Shown: piece by piece, positions 5,531-14,312 of the stretch
Layout: each line of letters begins with the position of its first letter
Position numbering within the stretch: the stretch's first letter is position 1
NCBI RefSeq assembly: GCF_013179285.1
Contig: NZ_WVNW01000001.1
Coordinates: 1-64,000 of the forward strand
Source of the DNA: Roseobacter sp. HKCCD6576-2
Lineage (GTDB): Bacteria; Pseudomonadota; Alphaproteobacteria; Rhodobacterales; Rhodobacteraceae
DNA: 64,000 bases
Direction: 5' to 3'
Notes under the pieces: model-generated
Told to the model about the DNA's origin: nothing
Seen by the model: the letters and a program-made list of their open reading frames with translations, nothing else
Databases searched by the model: none
Made by a program: the position numbers and the translations under genes

Positions 5531-5689
5531 CGATGACACAAGTCAGAAAACCGCACAAAATGCCGCAAACCGCACCCGCAACCTGGACGCGACTGCCCTT
5601 ATGGGAGAAAATCATATTTTACAGTATTTTAGGCTGATTTCGCACAACCAGTGGAAGATCACGTAGCGGCAAGTTCGTACAATTTTTAG

Positions 5690-5718
5690 TTGCACCCTAT
5701 CGAAATCTAACATTAAAC
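5690..5718 (+). promoter_or_regulatory. possible sigma70 promoter of the second marR gene
   Basis: TTGCAC (5690-5695) and TTAAAC are separated by 17 nt in an AT-rich stretch upstream of the marR start at 5760. The 5458-5759 interval holds only this AT-rich region and the serC leader; I see no gene in it. Confidence 0.35.
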
Positions 5719-5759
5719 CTTAAAATATTACCGTATGAGTGCATAGAAAGAGTCCAGCC

Positions 5760-6194
5760 ATGAGAGACTCGTCACAGAGCAAAACGTTTGAACTAAGTGA
5801 TTTTCTTCCATTCCAAATGGCGGTTGTGTCGTCACGTTTGTTTCAGACCATTATGTCTGACAGCGGGCTGCAACTGCCCGAATGGCGGATCATGATGGCG
5901 TTGCCGACCAATCAACCCTGCTCCTCCAATGACCTGTGTATCCTGACCGCAATGGATGCGGCACGGGTCAGCCGGGCGCAGCGGCGGCTGGAAGATCTGG
6001 ACCTGATCGATGTGAAACAAGATCGGCAGGACCGACGCCGTTTGATCGTCCAGCTCAGCGACACCGGTCAGCGAGAGTTCGACCGGTTGCAGACGGCCGC
6101 GCGCACAGTCGAGGCGAATATGCTCGACACAATGACCCCATCGGAACGCGCGAGTCTTCAAGTGACGATGTCGTCACTCTTCTCTAAACTCTAG
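5760..6194 (+). CDS. MarR family transcriptional regulator
   Basis: A 144-aa winged-helix regulator. LQLPEWRIMMAL, the HTH helix TAMDAARVSRAQRRLEDLDLI and the wing QDRQDRRRLIVQLSDTGQ place it in MarR. The ATG at 5760 was preferred over an in-frame GTG at 5739 because it gives the same length and N-terminal layout as the paralog at 2120-2554. It lies between divergent serC and co-oriented sitABCD. Its neighbourhood recalls AdcR-type metal regulators next to metal importers, but the protein has no histidines, so AdcR-like zinc sensing is unlikely. Its target could be sit, serC or itself; the sequence does not decide. Confidence 0.88.
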   Translation: MRDSSQSKTFELSDFLPFQMAVVSSRLFQTIMSDSGLQLPEWRIMMALPTNQPCSSNDLCILTAMDAARVSRAQRRLEDLDLIDVKQDRQDRRRLIVQLSDTGQREFDRLQTAARTVEANMLDTMTPSERASLQVTMSSLFSKL

Positions 6195-6221
6195 CGTCAA
6201 CCAACACAGTTTCACAGAAAG

Positions 6222-6241
6222 CGAAGGCTCCAGAGCCTTCG
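6222..6241 (+). terminator. perfect palindromic hairpin after marR
   Basis: CGAAGGCTC and GAGCCTTCG form a 9-bp perfect inverted repeat around 2 nt, starting 27 nt after the marR stop. No T tract follows, so termination is not certain; it may instead be a stabilising hairpin or a protein-binding palindrome ahead of the sit promoter. Confidence 0.45.
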
Positions 6242-6266
6242 AAAGTCGTGTCTGGCGCAGTTACAG

Positions 6267-6314
6267 TTTGCGACTGACTCGCAAAAGCATTGACTTTCTG
6301 CGAGTCAGTCGCAA
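6267..6314 (+). promoter_or_regulatory. paired palindromic operators at the sit promoter
   Basis: Two related palindromes occur here. Site 1 is TTTGCGACTGACTCGCAAA (6267-6285). Site 2 is TGCGAGTCAGTCGCA (6299-6313). Each is TGCGA-N5-TCGCA, and the asymmetric centres (CTGAC, GTCAG) are reverse complements, so 16 bp at 6268-6283 are perfectly inverted at 6299-6314. Centres are 30 bp apart, about three helical turns, and site 2 fills the spacer between -35 and -10. This is the classical layout of a repressor-controlled promoter. The regulator is not identified. Confidence 0.7.
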
Positions 6315-6317
6315 TAT
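6290..6317 (+). promoter_or_regulatory. sit operon promoter
   Basis: TTGACT (6290-6295) and CAATAT (6312-6317) are spaced by 16 bp, a good sigma70 match. Transcription would start near 6324, leaving a short 5' UTR before sitA. This also argues against the in-frame ATG at 6290 being a translation start. Confidence 0.65.
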
Positions 6318-6355
6318 CAATTGAGACGGCGTTCAAAGGAACGGATTCTGTGACG

Positions 6356-7306
6356 ATGATGAAATCTCTGTTGACGGCTGCGGCCACTGTTTTGGCGCTC
6401 TCGGGCGCGGCCATGGCCCAAGATCGGATGACGATTGTGGCCACCACAGGCATGGTTGCCGATGCCGCGCGTGTGGTTGGCGGCGATCTGGTCGAGGTGC
6501 AGGCCCTGATGGGGCCGGGTGTCGACCCACATGCGTATCGTCAAACCCGCAGCGATATCGTCGCCATGACACGCGCCGATCTGGTGCTGTGGCATGGGCT
6601 GTTCCTGGAAGCGCAGATGGAAGACTTCTTTGCCGATCTGGGTCAAAACCGGCCAGTTGTCGCGGTAGCCGAAGAAATGCCGCGCGACGTTCTCTTGGCG
6701 CATGACGATTACGACGGTCGGTTTGACCCACATGTGTGGATGGACCCGGAGCTTTGGGCGCTTGTCGTGGCCGAAGTCGAAGAAGCGCTGAGCGATGTGC
6801 AGCCCGACAATGCAGAGATTTTTGCGGCGAACGCCGCCGCCCATACCGAGCATCTGACCCAACTGGCCGCTTATGCCGACGAAGTTTTGGGCACCGTCCC
6901 TGAGACGGCGCGCGTGCTTTTGACCGCCCATGATGCATTCAACTATTTTGGCAATGCGCATGGGTTTGAGGTCATGGGAATCCAGGGGATTTCGACTGAA
7001 TCCGAGGCCGGGCTGGCGCGGATTGCCGAATTGGTCGATCTGCTTGTCGAGCGACAAGTGGGCGCGGTTTTCGTCGAAAGCTCCGTCTCTGATCGCAATA
7101 TCCGCGCTCTGATCGAAGGGGCCGCAGCGGAAGGCCATGAGGTGATCGTCGGTGGCGAGCTCTATTCCGACGCGATGGGCGCCGATGGCAGCTATGAAGG
7201 CACGTATCTCGGCATGATCGATCACAATGTGACGGTGATCACCCGCGCGCTCGGCGGCACCGCGCCGGAACGCGGCATGAATGGTCTGCTCTCGGCAGGC
7301 ATGTAA
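6356..7306 (+). CDS. sitA: manganese/iron ABC transporter, substrate-binding protein
   Basis: A 316-aa periplasmic cluster A-I metal-binding protein (TroA/PsaA/MntC/SitA family). The signal peptide MMKSLLTAAATVLALSGAAMA precedes the mature start QDRM. Likely metal ligands are His59 (VDPHAYR), His126 (DPHVWMDP), a Glu near 215-217 (GISTESEAG) and the Asp of SDAMG near the C-terminus. The His-His-Glu-Asp set and the lack of a His-rich loop favour Mn2+ or Fe2+ over zinc. The start could also be a GTG at 6350, 9 nt after AAAGGA. It heads the sitABCD operon, 9 nt before sitB. Confidence 0.92.
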   Translation: MMKSLLTAAATVLALSGAAMAQDRMTIVATTGMVADAARVVGGDLVEVQALMGPGVDPHAYRQTRSDIVAMTRADLVLWHGLFLEAQMEDFFADLGQNRPVVAVAEEMPRDVLLAHDDYDGRFDPHVWMDPELWALVVAEVEEALSDVQPDNAEIFAANAAAHTEHLTQLAAYADEVLGTVPETARVLLTAHDAFNYFGNAHGFEVMGIQGISTESEAGLARIAELVDLLVERQVGAVFVESSVSDRNIRALIEGAAAEGHEVIVGGELYSDAMGADGSYEGTYLGMIDHNVTVITRALGGTAPERGMNGLLSAGM

Positions 7307-7315
7307 GAGGCTCTT

Positions 7316-8122
7316 ATGACGGCACTAAATCTGGCAACCCAAAACGGCCATCGCGCCCAGGCAGCCAATATCGCTCTCAGCCCCCTGGCGATCCGGGGGC
7401 TGACGGTGTCTTACGGTGAGAAACCGGCGATCTTCTCGGTCGATATGACCGTCCAGCCGGGATCGATGACCGCCATCATCGGGCCGAACGGCGCCGGGAA
7501 ATCGACCCTCTTAAAGGCCGCATTGGGCATTATTCGTCCCCTGTCGGGCCATGTGACGGTTTTTGGCCAACCGCTGGATAGTCAACGCGGGCGCATCGCT
7601 TATGTGCCGCAGCGTGCCAGCGTGGACTGGGATTTCCCGACCACGGTTTTGGACGTGGTGTTGATGGGGCTCTATCGTGAGCTGGGCCTCTTGCGCCTGG
7701 TGCGCGGGGAGCACCGCCAGACCGCCGCCGAAGCTCTGGAGCGGGTTGGCATGAGTGATTTCGCGAACCGGCAAATTGGCCAGCTCTCCGGCGGGCAGCA
7801 GCAAAGGGTGTTTCTGGCCCGGGCGCTGGCACAGAAGGCCGATCTCTATTTGCTGGACGAGCCGTTTGCCGGTGTCGATGCCGCCACCGAAAAGGCAATC
7901 ATTGCGGTTCTGAAAAGCCTCAGAGCCGAGGGTAAAACCGTTATCGCCGTGCATCATGACCTCGCCACGGTCGAGCAGTATTTCGACCACGCATTCCTGA
8001 TCAACACGCGGCCCATTGCCGAAGGCACGGTGGCCGAGGCCTTCACTGCCGAGACCTTGCAAGCGGCCTATGGCGGGCGGCTGGCCACGGCGCAGATCGA
8101 CCGGCTGAGCCAAGCGGGCTAG
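7316..8122 (+). CDS. sitB: manganese/iron ABC transporter, ATP-binding protein
   Basis: A 268-aa ABC ATPase that would drive the SitC/SitD permease on the cytoplasmic face. Walker A GPNGAGKST, signature LSGGQQQRV, Walker B LYLLDEPFAGVD and the switch His in AVHHDL are intact. Length and context match the metal-chelate (ABC-3) importer ATPases. Its stop is 4 nt before sitC, so it is co-transcribed with the permeases. Confidence 0.95.
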   Translation: MTALNLATQNGHRAQAANIALSPLAIRGLTVSYGEKPAIFSVDMTVQPGSMTAIIGPNGAGKSTLLKAALGIIRPLSGHVTVFGQPLDSQRGRIAYVPQRASVDWDFPTTVLDVVLMGLYRELGLLRLVRGEHRQTAAEALERVGMSDFANRQIGQLSGGQQQRVFLARALAQKADLYLLDEPFAGVDAATEKAIIAVLKSLRAEGKTVIAVHHDLATVEQYFDHAFLINTRPIAEGTVAEAFTAETLQAAYGGRLATAQIDRLSQAG

Positions 8123-8126
8123 GCCC

Positions 8127-9332
8127 ATGCTGCTTGAGGCGCTCACCCTCCAGCTTGGCTATAACGCCACGTTGGTTGCCATCGGCGCGATGCTGCTCGG
8201 CATCGCGGCGGGGGTGACGGGCACCTTCCTTTTCCTCCGCAAACGCGCCCTGGTCTCCGACGCGATCAGCCATGCGACACTGCCCGGTGTCGGGTTGGCC
8301 TTTATCGTTATGGTCTGGTTCGGCATGGACGGGCGAAGCCTGATCGGGCTGCTCATCGGCTCGGCGCTGTCGGCCTGGGTTGGGCTGCTTTGCGTTCAAT
8401 GGCTGAGCAATCGCACACGGCTCAGCGAGGATTCGGCCATCGGAGCCGTGCTCTCGGTGTTTTTCGGTGCCGGTGTGGTCTTGCTGACTGTAATCCAAGG
8501 GATGAGCGCCGGGCGGCAAGCTGGGCTCGACTCGCTCCTTTTGGGTTCTACGGCGGGGATGCTGTTATCCGATGCGATACTGATTGCGGTGGGCGGGGCG
8601 CTGGTTCTGGCGCTGACTCTGCTCCTCAGACGGCCGATGTCACTTGTGGCCTTTGACAGTGACTATGCAGCCGCATCGGGTCTGAACGTCGCGCGGATCG
8701 ACCTGACCACGATGGGGCTGGTTCTGGCCGTTACGGTGGTTGGACTCAAGATTGTCGGGCTGATCCTGATTGTCGCTCTGTTGATCATTCCGCCGGTGAC
8801 AGCCCGGTTCTGGACCGAACGGACCGAGCGGGTCTGGCTGATTGCGGGCGGCTTGGGTGGTCTCTCTGGTTATGTCGGTGCAGCGATCTCTGCTTCGGCC
8901 CCGGCCTTACCCACCGGGCCGATCATCGTGCTGGTGGCGTTTGGACTCTTCGTGCTCTCGCTTCTGTTCTCGCCCGCGCGCGGCGTGTTGTCCTCGGTCT
9001 TGACGCATTTGCAATACCGCCGCCGTGTTCATCGCCGTCAAGGGCTTCTGGCATTGGCGCAAGGCCAGCCGATCTACGAAGGGTACACACTCCGCCTGCT
9101 GCAACGGGAGGGGTTGGCCCGCGCCGATGGCGTCGCGACCGAAGAGGGGCAGGCCCGAGCGGCAAAAGCTCTGCTGGATGAAAAACGCTGGGAGATCTTG
9201 CGCGGGTTACAAGCCCATGAAGCGACCGCTGCGCGCTATGACGGGCTGACCCATCTGGAAACGATCCTGACCAAGGATCAGCTCCGCGATCTCGACACAC
9301 GGATTGCCGCCCCGCGCGAGGTGACCCCATGA
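8127..9332 (+). CDS. sitC: manganese/iron ABC transporter permease with a C-terminal DtxR-like extension
   Basis: Residues 1-283 form an ABC-3 family integral membrane permease with about eight hydrophobic segments and conserved SDAISHATLPG. Family permeases usually end near 290 aa, but this one continues to 401 aa. The tail (about 300-395) reads like a DtxR/MntR repressor: LLQREGLARADG, then TEEGQARAAKALLDEKRWEILRGL, then a YDGLTHLETILTKDQLRDLDTRI stretch aligning with the HEACRLEHVMSDEVEERL region of DtxR. The helix-turn-helix part looks shortened, so DNA binding is doubtful. Chlamydial YtgCR is a known permease-repressor fusion. Its last codons overlap sitD by 4 nt. Confidence 0.9.
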   Translation: MLLEALTLQLGYNATLVAIGAMLLGIAAGVTGTFLFLRKRALVSDAISHATLPGVGLAFIVMVWFGMDGRSLIGLLIGSALSAWVGLLCVQWLSNRTRLSEDSAIGAVLSVFFGAGVVLLTVIQGMSAGRQAGLDSLLLGSTAGMLLSDAILIAVGGALVLALTLLLRRPMSLVAFDSDYAAASGLNVARIDLTTMGLVLAVTVVGLKIVGLILIVALLIIPPVTARFWTERTERVWLIAGGLGGLSGYVGAAISASAPALPTGPIIVLVAFGLFVLSLLFSPARGVLSSVLTHLQYRRRVHRRQGLLALAQGQPIYEGYTLRLLQREGLARADGVATEEGQARAAKALLDEKRWEILRGLQAHEATAARYDGLTHLETILTKDQLRDLDTRIAAPREVTP

Positions 9333-10321: not shown

Positions 10322-10500
10322 CCTACTTCGGTCCGGGCGGCGTGAGTCGTCTGGGTAAAAGGGAACACGGTGAAACTCCGTGGCTGCCCCCGCAACTGTA
10401 AGCGGCGAGCGAGACTGGACTATGCCACTGCGGCCCCACATGGGCCACGGGAAGGCCCAGCCAAGCGTCGACCCGCGAGTCAGGAGACCTGCCGAGGTGA
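10322..10500 (+). ncRNA. cobalamin (AdoCbl) riboswitch
   Basis: A class I cobalamin riboswitch aptamer. It contains the conserved AAAAGGGAACACGGTGAAA core (10357-10375), the GCTGCCCCCGCAACTGTAA element (10383-10401) and the B12 box AGTCAGGAGACCTGCC (10478-10493). It precedes btuB and nine further cobalamin genes, so high B12 should shut the operon down. The 153 nt between the B12 box and the btuB start is the expression platform. Confidence 0.97.
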
Positions 10501-10581
10501 TCACCCTGTTCGGACGCGGGAGGCGTCATGGGCAACGGTCTTTCCGTCGTGGTGGCACTCTCACCGTCTGCGGCGGGGCCA

Positions 10582-10642
10582 TCCCCCTTCCAAAGACAAA
10601 TCGTTGCACCACGCAGCCCCGGGGACGGGCTGACAAGGGGGA
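10582..10642 (+). promoter_or_regulatory. candidate RBS-sequestering expression platform
   Basis: TCCCCCTT (10582-10589) is exactly complementary to AAGGGGGA (10635-10642), the btuB Shine-Dalgarno region. A small hairpin (CAGCCC 10614-10619 with GGGCTG 10627-10632) lies between them. No terminator with a T tract is seen after the aptamer. This suggests translational control: the ligand-bound aptamer would favour occlusion of the RBS. It is inferred from complementarity only. Confidence 0.5.
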
Positions 10643-10646
10643 CATT

Positions 10647-12503
10647 ATGAATAAGACACTGGGCGCCGTTGCTGCGACCCTTCTGACAACCACATCCGCT
10701 CTGGCGCAGGAGCCAGTGTTCCAACTGCCTGAAATCATCTTCTCGGCTGGCCTGACCGCGATCGAGGCAAATCGCACCGGCGTCAGTGTCGAAGTCGTGG
10801 ATGAGGACGACCTCGACGCCGCCGGGGATGTCCAACTGTCGGACTACCTCGAAACCCTGCCGGGCATTTCCGTCACACAAAACGGCCCGGTTGGTACGAA
10901 CACAACGCTTCGGATCCGCGGGCTCAACGGCAACTACATCCCCGTTCTGATCAACGGGATCGACGTGACAGATCCGTCCAGCACGCAAACAAACTTCAAC
11001 TTCGGCACATTGACCACCGGCGGCATCAGCCGGATTGAGGTCTTGTATGGCTCGCAGAGCGCCATCTACGGGTCCGAGGCCATTGGCGGCGTGATCAACA
11101 TCACCACCCTGCAAGCGCCTGACGAGAACGGGACAGACATTATCGTGAATGCCGAGGGCGGAACCTATGACTCCTACCTCGGCGAAGTCGGCATCGCGAC
11201 CCGTTTTGACCGCGGCACACTGGCCTTCAGCGCCACTCGCGTCGTGACTGACGGGTTCTCGGCCGCCGATGAAAACCTCGGCAACACCGAAGCGGATGGG
11301 TACGAATCCACGACGCTGAGCTTTACCGGCACCTATGAGTTGTCGGAAACAGTCACGATCGGCGGCAGTGTCATCTACCTGGATTCGCGGTCCGACTTCG
11401 ATTCAGGCGGCGGGGCGGGCCGAGATTCCGACCGCTTCCTGACCTCAGAACAGTTGGGTGCACGGATCTTCGCGCAATTCGACGGCGTCCATATCGATCA
11501 TGAAATCGCGGTTCAGGCCTTCCGCATTGATCGGTCCGATCCGAATTCCACATCATCGGTGACCAATTTCGAAGGCGACCGGCTCGGGTTCTCCTATCGC
11601 GGGACAATCGATCTGGCGGGCGAACAGGGCCTTGTGATCGGGGCGGATTATACCCGTGAGGATTACCTGTCCTTTGGCACAGGCGGACGCACCGAGGCGG
11701 ATTACTCCGTCGCCACACTTCTGGGAGAGTATACCACCCGCCTTGGCAACGACGTCGATCTGGCATTGGCAGTGCGATACGACGAGCATTCGGTTTTTGG
11801 TGGCGCCACAACAGGCCGCGCCGCGCTGGCGTGGCGACCTGACGCCAACACCACGATCCGCGCATCTATTGCAACCGGCTTCCGCGCGCCCTCGCTCAAT
11901 GAGCTTTATGGTCCCTTTGGCGCGCCCAACCCGAATCTGCAGCCCGAAGAAAGCCGCAGTGCCGAGTTGGCCATCGAGCGCGAATTTGCGAATGGCAGGG
12001 TCGGGGCGGCTTTATTCTATACCGAGATTGATGATCTGATAGACTTCCGAGGCGGCGGTTACGTACAGGTGCCTGGCAAAACAGTGTCGCGGGGGATCGA
12101 GCTGACCGGGGAACTTGCGCTGAACGACAACTATTCGCTCTTCGGCAACTATACCTACACCGACAGTGAAGAAATCAGCGGCAATCGCCTGGCCCGCGTC
12201 CCACTACATGATCTTACTCTTGGACTACGCGCAGAGTTCAATGACCTCTGGAGCGGAACAGTCACAGTGCAGCATGTCGCCGGACGTCAAGATCGCGTGT
12301 TCGGCCCGCCACCGACCTTTGCCAGCACCCCGTTCGATATGCCCGACTATACCGTTGCGAACATGTCTCTTGGCTATGCCGTGAACGATGCGACCGAGGT
12401 ATATCTGCGCGTTGAGAACATCTTCGATGAGGAGTATCAGACCACGCTTGGCTACGGCACCAGCGACAGGGCGTTTTACCTTGGCGTCCGTGCGTCCTTC
12501 TAG
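10647..12503 (+). CDS. btuB: TonB-dependent vitamin B12 outer-membrane receptor
   Basis: A 618-aa outer-membrane receptor. The signal peptide MNKTLGAVAATLLTTTSALA is followed by a plug domain (about 35-140; LSDYLETLPGISVTQNG, LRIRGLNGNYIPVLINGID, YGSEAIGGVINITT). A 22-strand-type barrel follows and ends in the terminal Phe of LGVRASF. The start was chosen at the ATG preceded by AAGGGGG and by the signal peptide; the frame remains open upstream through the riboswitch but is non-coding there. Substrate is inferred from the riboswitch and the cobalamin genes downstream. The stop overlaps the btuF start. Confidence 0.95.
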   Translation: MNKTLGAVAATLLTTTSALAQEPVFQLPEIIFSAGLTAIEANRTGVSVEVVDEDDLDAAGDVQLSDYLETLPGISVTQNGPVGTNTTLRIRGLNGNYIPVLINGIDVTDPSSTQTNFNFGTLTTGGISRIEVLYGSQSAIYGSEAIGGVINITTLQAPDENGTDIIVNAEGGTYDSYLGEVGIATRFDRGTLAFSATRVVTDGFSAADENLGNTEADGYESTTLSFTGTYELSETVTIGGSVIYLDSRSDFDSGGGAGRDSDRFLTSEQLGARIFAQFDGVHIDHEIAVQAFRIDRSDPNSTSSVTNFEGDRLGFSYRGTIDLAGEQGLVIGADYTREDYLSFGTGGRTEADYSVATLLGEYTTRLGNDVDLALAVRYDEHSVFGGATTGRAALAWRPDANTTIRASIATGFRAPSLNELYGPFGAPNPNLQPEESRSAELAIEREFANGRVGAALFYTEIDDLIDFRGGGYVQVPGKTVSRGIELTGELALNDNYSLFGNYTYTDSEEISGNRLARVPLHDLTLGLRAEFNDLWSGTVTVQHVAGRQDRVFGPPPTFASTPFDMPDYTVANMSLGYAVNDATEVYLRVENIFDEEYQTTLGYGTSDRAFYLGVRASF

Positions 12504-13326
12504 CCGCGTCATAAGGCTTGGTGCGGCGGTGGCCTTTGTGGCTGCCGCCGCGCCCAGTTGGGCCGACATGCCCGAGCGTGTCGTCTCGATGAATCTCTGC
12601 ACCGACCAGCTCGCGATGATGCTGGCCGCGCCGGGGCAGTTGATCTCGGTCAGCGATATTGCCACCGATCCGCTGATCTCTCCTATGCATTTGGAGGCCG
12701 CGGCCTATCCTGCGAATTTTGGCGGTGCCGAAGAGATTTATCTGCTCCGCCCCGATTTGGTCTTGGCCGGCGTCTATTCCGACCCCGCCGTTGTCTCGAT
12801 GCTGCGCCGTTTGCGGGTTGAGGTGGCGCAGATCGACATTGTCACCGGGCTTGATCAAGTCACGGACCGCCTGGCCGAAGTCGGTGCGCTTCTCCATCGG
12901 GAAGAGGAGGCCGCCGCGCGCGCCGAAGCCTTTGAGACTGATCTGGATGCGCTGACCCGCCCTGAAACCGGGCCGCGGGCGGCGTTCTATTACCCAAACG
13001 GCTATTCTCTGGGCACTGGCACCCTGTCTCATGAGATCCTAACCACCGCCGGGTTCCGCCATATCGCCGACGAACTGGGGCGGGACAGCAGCGGTCGCTT
13101 GGCGCTAGAGCTTCTGGCCGTGGCTGCGCCAGATGTGGTGATCAGCACCGGAACATACCCCGGCAACTCCCGATCCGAGGATATTCTGCATCATCCCGCT
13201 CTTGAGGCGCTCATTGCGGCGGGGCAGGGGCATGTCAGCGGACCCGACTGGGTCTGCGGGACGCCGCAGGTTTTGACCGCGCTCTCAGATTTGACAACCC
13301 TGCGGGACGGGATGGAGGCGGAATGA
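12490..13326 (+). CDS. btuF: periplasmic cobalamin-binding protein
   Basis: A 278-aa helical-backbone (cluster A-II) binding protein that would pass B12 from the periplasm to BtuCD. A GTG start at 12490, overlapping the end of btuB by 14 nt, gives a clear signal peptide ending WA|DMPERVVSMN; no better in-frame start was seen. The family phrases VSMNLCTDQLAMML, EEIYLLRPDLVLAG and the C-terminal GPDWVCGTPQVL are present. It overlaps btuC by 4 nt. Confidence 0.9.
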   Translation: MRPSSRVIRLGAAVAFVAAAAPSWADMPERVVSMNLCTDQLAMMLAAPGQLISVSDIATDPLISPMHLEAAAYPANFGGAEEIYLLRPDLVLAGVYSDPAVVSMLRRLRVEVAQIDIVTGLDQVTDRLAEVGALLHREEEAAARAEAFETDLDALTRPETGPRAAFYYPNGYSLGTGTLSHEILTTAGFRHIADELGRDSSGRLALELLAVAAPDVVISTGTYPGNSRSEDILHHPALEALIAAGQGHVSGPDWVCGTPQVLTALSDLTTLRDGMEAE

Positions 13327-14312
13327 GACTGTCGCTGCTCCTCTCCGGTTTGACGGCTCTGGTCGTGGTGCTGTTCGGCCTCTCGCTCTTGGTTGGGCCG
13401 GCGGGGTTTGGCATCGGCCAAAGCCTCTCCGCCCTGCTCGGCGGGGAAGGTGAGGCGGTGACCCTTGTGATGCGCGAGATTCGCCTGCCCCGCGCCATTC
13501 TGGCCGTCATGGTGGGGGTTAGCTTGGGACTCTCCGGCGCGGCACTGCAAGGGTTCTTGCGGAACCCCCTGGCCGAACCCGGATTGATCGGTGTCTCTTC
13601 CTCCGCAGCCTTGGGCGCGGTGCTTGCCCTGCAAACGGGATTTGCCACGAGCTTTGCGTTGGCACTGCCTGTTTCGGCTCTAACCGGCGCATTGATCTCT
13701 GTTCTACTCCTCCTCGTTCTGGCCGGCCGCCGAGGCGGATCGCTCACATTGATCCTCGCAGGCATCGCGATCAGCGCACTGGCCGGGGCCTTCCTCTCCT
13801 TGGTTCTCAACCTCTCGCCCAACCCTTTCGCGGTGAGTGAAATCGTGTTCTGGATGCTTGGGTCTCTTTCGGATCGGTCCTTTGATCATGTGACCGTCGC
13901 CCTACCAGTCATGCTGCTCGGGTGGGTCCTTTTGGCGAGCCTCGGGCGCGGCCTTGATGCCCTGACGCTGGGCCAAGATGCGGCGGAATCCATGGGCATC
14001 AACCTTAGTCAATTGCGCCTTAGATTGGTTGCCGGTGTCGCCGCGTCGGTCGGCGCGGCGACGGCGGTGGCGGGGGCTATCGGGTTCGTCGGCCTTGTGG
14101 TGCCGCATATTCTACGCCCGTTTGTCGGCGCACGCCCGGGCGCCCTTTTGCCTGCCTCCGCGCTTGGCGGTGCGGCGATGGTTCTTGCGGCCGACATCGC
14201 CGTCCGCCTGGTGCTCCCCGATCGGGATCTGAAACTCGGCGTCCTCATGGCGATCGTCGGCGCACCGCTTTTCCTTCATCTGATCTATAAGACGCGGAAG
14301 CAGATGATATGA
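13323..14312 (+). CDS. btuC: cobalamin ABC transporter permease (FecCD family)
   Basis: A 329-aa integral membrane protein with about ten hydrophobic helices. FecCD hallmarks are visible: REIRLPRAILAVMVGVSLGLSGAALQGFLRNPLAEPGLIGVSS near the N-terminus and GAIGFVGLVVPHILRPFVG near residue 255. It would form a homodimeric channel with BtuD. It is bracketed by 4-nt overlaps with btuF and btuD. Confidence 0.95.
   Translation: MRLSLLLSGLTALVVVLFGLSLLVGPAGFGIGQSLSALLGGEGEAVTLVMREIRLPRAILAVMVGVSLGLSGAALQGFLRNPLAEPGLIGVSSSAALGAVLALQTGFATSFALALPVSALTGALISVLLLLVLAGRRGGSLTLILAGIAISALAGAFLSLVLNLSPNPFAVSEIVFWMLGSLSDRSFDHVTVALPVMLLGWVLLASLGRGLDALTLGQDAAESMGINLSQLRLRLVAGVAASVGAATAVAGAIGFVGLVVPHILRPFVGARPGALLPASALGGAAMVLAADIAVRLVLPDRDLKLGVLMAIVGAPLFLHLIYKTRKQMI

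Follow-up and report, generated by a model that had tools for sequence, protein, structure and literature searches.

The manganese-importer operon sitABCD of Roseobacter sp. HKCCD6576-2, located in the 64,000-nucleotide stretch of DNA analyzed here (the window), is preceded by two palindromes that are very likely a pair of operators for Mur, the alphaproteobacterial Fur/Mur and a relative of Fur that senses manganese, as predicted from their sequence. Control of sitABCD by Mur is very probably of an ordinary, known and essentially understood Mn-Mur kind, the one mildly novel feature being the conserved two-box layout, with an exchange of Mur for MntR as a modest addition.

Two palindromes at the sitABCD promoter

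The features of the region are listed below, in window coordinates.

5760-6194, plus strand: MarR-family gene, upstream of the boxes, judged a bystander
6222-6241, no strand assigned: terminator-like hairpin CGAAGGCTCTGGAGCCTTCG, with its score from the minus strand, downstream of marR and ahead of the boxes
6267-6285: 19-bp palindrome TTTGCGACTGACTCGCAAA, the upstream box with its flanks, read from the sequence
6269-6283, no strand assigned: putative upstream Mur box TGCGACT-G-ACTCGCA, TGCGACTGACTCGCA, from sequence, profile score 25.4
6290-6295, plus strand: -35 element TTGACT, from sequence, between both boxes
6299-6313, no strand assigned: putative downstream Mur box TGCGAGTCAGTCGCA, inside the -35/-10 spacer, profile score 22.5
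6312-6317, plus strand: putative -10 element CAATAT, placed by eye, its first two bases shared with the end of the downstream box
6359-7306, plus strand: sitA, metal-binding protein (PF01297)
7316-8122, plus strand: sitB, ATPase
8127-9332, plus strand: sitC, permease (ABC-3) with a C-terminal tail of ~115 aa
9329-10246, plus strand: sitD, permease (ABC-3)

The bases at 6299-6313 are the exact reverse complement of those at 6269-6283, a match that reaches 16 nt with one flanking base, and the two palindromes that an initial annotation had placed on the sitABCD promoter are real. The promoter proposed in that annotation, TTGACT and CAATAT separated by 16 nt, is present by eye, with TTGAC beginning 9 nt before the downstream box, and its -35 part is widely kept in relatives (see below); however, a stricter sigma-70 scan of 5560-6400 listed no promoter. 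The motif as first written, TGCGA-N5-TCGCA, has only two exact matches in the window, both at the sitA promoter, and six when one mismatch is allowed, which is the chance level (mean 5.2). Across the 4.4-Mb genome we found seven exact sites versus three for the reversed control, and a single pair of boxes with a gap of 5-35 bp, that at the sitA promoter. The unit is better given as TGCGACT-G-ACTCGCA, a 7-1-7 arrangement in which six of the seven pairs match and one inner pair of the HKCCD6576-2 boxes departs from the symmetry. Looser box matches in this genome number five in all, versus one for the control, and no further manganese gene was found beside those located elsewhere (L287, L288 and L289; G and L numbers are our labels for genomes and loci), whose neighbors, named by eye from translations, are an isoprenylcysteine-methyltransferase-like gene and a gene for a TRAP-type binding protein, one of the three loci having no clear gene nearby. 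The region 3' of sitD (10380-14312) encodes a TonB-dependent receptor, a periplasmic binding protein and, by eye, a FecCD-like permease, a gene set for uptake of iron, heme or cobalamin.

The consensus from 124 box pairs at sitA promoters of the family, T-G-C/A-G-A-A-T-N-A-T-T-C-G/T-C-A (TGMGAAT-N-ATTCKCA), is a 7-1-7 inverted repeat and, as far as sequence can tell, has the shape of a Fur-type operator. The initial annotation had recognized no known regulator box in the motif, but with the inner T/A positions taken into account it matches a Fur/Mur box. Both marks of such a box are present, namely the 7-1-7 repeat and a site on the sitA promoter between -35 and -10, with the start placed by sequence, and the earlier suggestion of a metal-regulator operator on the sit promoter is supported as a predicted site.

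Conservation of the boxes and their association with Mur

A SitA match is found in 304 of 394 family genomes, and we took the best 150 matches, of which 148 loci were kept and two left out for having less than 400 nt upstream. These were scored with a 19-position profile built from 23 other double-box genomes, HKCCD6576-2 being left out. A box scoring at least 13 lies upstream of sitA in 145 of 147 relatives, 17 of which also trained the profile, and, once those are removed, in 128 of 130; at the same threshold, none of 145 control stretches taken ~1.1-1.4 kb upstream contained a site, and shuffling gave one in 3 of 441 cases. The motif search at orthologous sit promoters that had been suggested for the palindrome was thus run, and the absence that would have spoken against it was not seen. 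At a looser threshold of 8, where the controls are not empty (a site in 5 of 145 or 6 of 146 stretches, in two counts), 131 of the 148 sitA upstreams hold two or more boxes, 15 hold one and 2 hold none. A pair spaced 28-31 bp is found in 124 of the 148, and 112 of these 124 paired promoters have a TTGAC whose first base is 7-10 nt ahead of the downstream box. Of the 394 family genomes, 24 contain the double-box pattern and none its reversed control, and in all 24 the pair lies in front of SitA/SitB genes. Since the pair and the placement of TTGAC are common across relatives, the two-box arrangement is the rule for the sitA promoter in this family.

Three genes of the Fur family are present in HKCCD6576-2, encoding a Mur/Fur-like protein (802188-802598 of contig C12), an Irr and a Zur-like protein. 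The Irr exceeds both NCBIfam cut-offs, whereas the Zur-like protein has the Zur model as its best match but reaches only 132 of 167 bits. The Mur/Fur-like protein matches PF01475 with 141.6 bits, falls below the NCBIfam Fur cut-off (96.9 versus 146 bits), and none of its NCBIfam matches came from a model named Mur. Its best structural matches are PDB 4ray and its set (3e-59), followed by 5fd5/5fd6 (2.5e-52); we take the 4ray set (4ray-4rb3) to be MSR-1 Fur and 5fd5/5fd6 to be Rhizobium Fur. Residues E81, H87, D89 and E101, presumably metal sites, are kept. So are Y56, R57, H33, H90, E108 and H125 of the MSR-1 Fur paper, while K15 is replaced by R; the protein thus has the domain and the DNA and metal residues of the Fur family.

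A Mur match is present in 350 of the 394 family genomes, and boxes and Mur occur together. Among the 148 genomes, 126 are near-complete (≥95%), and in these the box is found in 124 of 124 with Mur and in neither of the two without (Fisher P 1.3e-4, a guide only, since related genomes are not independent). Altogether, 143 of the 148 genomes count as having Mur, six of them through a diverged best match (1e-33 to 1e-40) that is the sole Mur match in box-bearing genomes G001, G018, G074, G162, G220 and G364. A Fur-family gene lies divergently beside sitA in G001, G074, G162 and G328 (L197, L203, L217 and L232), where boxes are also present. The five loci in genomes without a Mur match belong to G004, G015, G119, G147 and G159. 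The near-complete, Mur-less G004 and G015 have exactly the two box-less sitA promoters of the 148; both carry a divergent mntR beside sitA (L211 and L241), over the NCBIfam cut-off, and another motif, TTAGYCTTGACTAA, was seen by eye in their upstream stretches, in which an inverted-repeat scan with the chosen settings returned nothing. In G119, G147 and G159, whose assemblies are 73-89% complete, boxes are present and no Mur was found.

The analysis covered every one of the 17 Mur-less genomes that have a SitA match, the five above and 12 others with 13 more distant loci. In G338 and G050, which lack both Mur and box, sitA adjoins a DtxR-type gene. A sitABCD operon with a neighboring mntR or DtxR-type gene instead of Mur boxes is seen in G004, G015, G338, G050 and an Azospirillum plasmid (L311). 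To judge by sequence, mntR or a DtxR-type gene beside a box-less sitABCD would represent a regulator swap at the same transporter. However, G030, G029 and G102 showed no box, no Mur and no DtxR-type gene, and thus not every loss of the box can be put down to an exchange for MntR; in G369 a box and Mur coexist with a DtxR-type gene elsewhere. The G085 locus has no box and seems to begin within an operon. Five ZnuA-type loci (L297-L301) lack the TGCGA box; three of them (G117, G069 and G392; L297, L299 and L300) have ATGTTATAACAT upstream, presumably a Zur box, and the other two only something similar. The box thus stands at orthologous promoters together with a Mur gene, the exception being G336, which is 97% complete and has a SitA of ~30% identity. 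It has two good boxes (23.2 and 19.8), with one weak site (8.4) further up at a second locus, and we found no Mur in it, its Fur-family matches being Irr, a Zur-like protein and a single weak hit; its two classified Fur-family genes are confirmed as non-Mur. This genome counts against the Mur reading, unless the assembly lacks a Mur gene that the organism has.

A double-box scan of wider genome contigs gave at least 118 loci, with SitA just downstream at 34 of those listed; of the other 84 listed, proteins were annotated at nine, two of which gave no match. Paired TGCGAN5TCGCA boxes with a 10-bp gap occur at L118 and other Sphingopyxis loci; at L118, the one such locus annotated, the pair lies between a bacterioferritin gene and purQ. 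Pairs precede TonB receptors at L067, L077, L112 and L127 (sphingomonads) and at L169. Repeated TGCGAGTCCCTCGCA or TGCGAGGGACTCGCA pairs at L101, L103, L123, L128, L139, L162, L175 and L182, five of them Xanthomonas, resemble an intergenic repeat more than they do Mur boxes, and pairs of TGCGATCCGGTCGCAT with 17-18 bp gaps at L091, L130, L142, L161 and L179 (the first three actinobacterial) likely belong to another regulator.

Other candidate ligands of the boxes

The initial annotation had named the neighboring MarR-family protein, chromosomal Mur or MntR, and a released SitC tail as candidate regulators, and only Mur is supported, as the boxes co-occur with Mur and fit the operators of a relative. 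MarR dimers bind palindromes of about this size, and marR adjoins sitABCD in the same direction. Control of sitABCD by this protein (5760-6194) through both palindromes is nevertheless very improbable: the box stands before sitA in 146 of 148 genomes, whereas a homologue of this MarR was found within 1.4 kb upstream of sitA only in HKCCD6576-2 and G289 among the best 150 loci (tblastn, E up to 1e-3), and the 360 bp upstream of marR itself contain no box (best score 0.2), so that the box does not accompany marR. Recognition by a DtxR-type regulator (MntR) or by the SitC tail deserves equally little credence. An MntR or DtxR-type gene does lie beside sitA in G004, G015, G338 and G050, but these are genomes in which the TGCGA box is missing, and HKCCD6576-2 has no PF02742 match, where 11 of 14 control genomes were positive; no MntR is therefore found encoded in the genome. 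The tail (window 8979-9329, ~115 aa) is conserved among 14 aligned sequences and was modeled with a pLDDT of 83.9; its likeness to MntR/DtxR (Z up to 6.6) is below the caution level, and the best Foldseek E is 0.43. The Azospirillum sit operon, with mntR and no box (best score 3.2), has a SitC with the same tail (54% identical), which argues against the tail as ligand of the boxes. To judge from the model, the tail is possibly a built-in metal-sensing domain of the transporter.

The other Fur-family proteins of the genome fare little better, and Irr or Zur as the main ligand is highly unlikely. Both genes are present in HKCCD6576-2, and G336 combines boxes with Irr and a Zur-like protein in the absence of a detected Mur. 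However, one or two Fur-family genes, classified no further than non-Mur, remain in seven box-less genomes (G004, G015, G338, G030, G029, G050 and G102), and none of the five ZnuA-type loci has the palindrome, three showing ATGTTATAACAT instead. Furthermore, in passages of a study that gives the sitA upstream region as a predicted Mur target, Rhodobacter sphaeroides Irr did not bind that region (PMC3413700). Least credible of all is that the inverted pair acts as a hairpin or cruciform and not as two protein sites. As a single strand the pair folds strongly (-22.2 kcal/mol, z -7.8), but over the 124 pairs complementarity of the central five bases does not exceed that seen with shuffled partners (475 of 2000 shuffles were as high), exact inverted copies occurring in five pairs and exact direct copies in two. 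Box-to-box complementarity is at the chance level, and therefore pairing between the boxes is not selected; moreover, with a predicted transcription start near 6324 the hairpin would lie outside the transcript. The mirrored centers that had been pointed out are thus exact in the window but at the chance level over the family, and a symmetric dimer would not care about them.

Proposed control by Mur and comparison with known systems

Binding by Mur, the metal sensed in HKCCD6576-2, repression and cooperation of two dimers are what we infer for this promoter. When Mn2+, and possibly also Fe2+, is plentiful, metal-loaded Mur dimers would occupy the two boxes, one on each, the downstream dimer covering the -35/-10 spacer and the upstream dimer a stretch immediately ahead of -35. 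With both bound, RNA polymerase would be kept off sitABCD, and the upstream box may strengthen or grade the control. When manganese is scarce, Mur would lose its metal and leave the promoter, and the importer would be made. That Mur probably acts as a repressor at sitABCD follows from the box position and from published relatives. The spacing is near three helical turns, in loose agreement with the earlier suggestion that a regulator binds both sites on one helix face; however, 28-31 bp spans ~100 degrees of rotation, and thus the data do not call for contact strictly on one face.

A more specific proposal, which we hold tentatively and a little short of even confidence, is that the sit promoter of the family is a two-operator clamp, in which two Mur dimers ~three helical turns apart hold the -35 element between them and both boxes are selected for a sharper or graded Mn switch than one box would give, some lineages having lost Mur and rebuilt the promoter for a neighboring MntR. 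A literature search, which missed most subscription papers, found no description of the paired-box layout. As a family-wide Mur operator, the previously unrecognized palindrome would provide a profile ready for use in searching these bacteria for manganese-regulated genes, and the tightly kept spacing of the boxes and the swap from Mur to MntR allow tests of how a promoter is retained by one metal regulator or passed to another.

Reportedly, a Mur box at the R. sphaeroides sitA promoter was predicted by Rodionov et al. in 2006. The classical Fur box of P. aeruginosa, GATAATGATAATCATTATC, is likewise a 7-1-7 inverted repeat, and TGAGAAT/ATTCTCA arms resembling it occur at many family sitA promoters, but it scores -3.0 on the sitA profile and the boxes described here have TGCGA arms instead. 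A Mn2+-responsive Fur-family protein also controls sitABCD in Rhizobium leguminosarum, where, in passages of one source, Mur has boxes at sitABCD and mntH (PMC5575495); the title of a paper calls the Mur operator unusual. For MSR-1 Fur, passages of PMC4506495 give a DNase footprint, TTAATCGCAACTCATTCGCAATTGC, at the feoAB1 operator, a co-crystal with Mn2+ on the close variant TGCAAATCATTTGCA, and abolition of binding on loss of R57. These operators, as given there, fit the sitA profile (16.0 for the footprint and 19.2 for the co-crystal operator), and Mn2+ in the complex and the shared R57 extend the likeness; however, in the same passages MSR-1 Fur controls an iron importer with one dimer per site, and it has K15 where the HKCCD6576-2 Mur has R (PMC4506495).

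The closest counterpart is sitA of R. sphaeroides, whose ~50-fold response to Mn2+ limitation needs Fur/Mur (RSP_2494) and whose -10 and -35 elements enclose a nearly perfect Mur box, direct binding not itself being shown in the passages concerned (PMC6956336). A further input there is OxyR, on which, in passages of another study, induction of sitABCD on iron limitation in air depended (PMC4176601). The two systems share the site of the box between -35 and -10, the operon, the regulator family and the bacterial order. However, whereas the passages on R. sphaeroides mention one box and give no sequence for it, the HKCCD6576-2 promoter has a second, exact inverted copy 5' of the -35 element.
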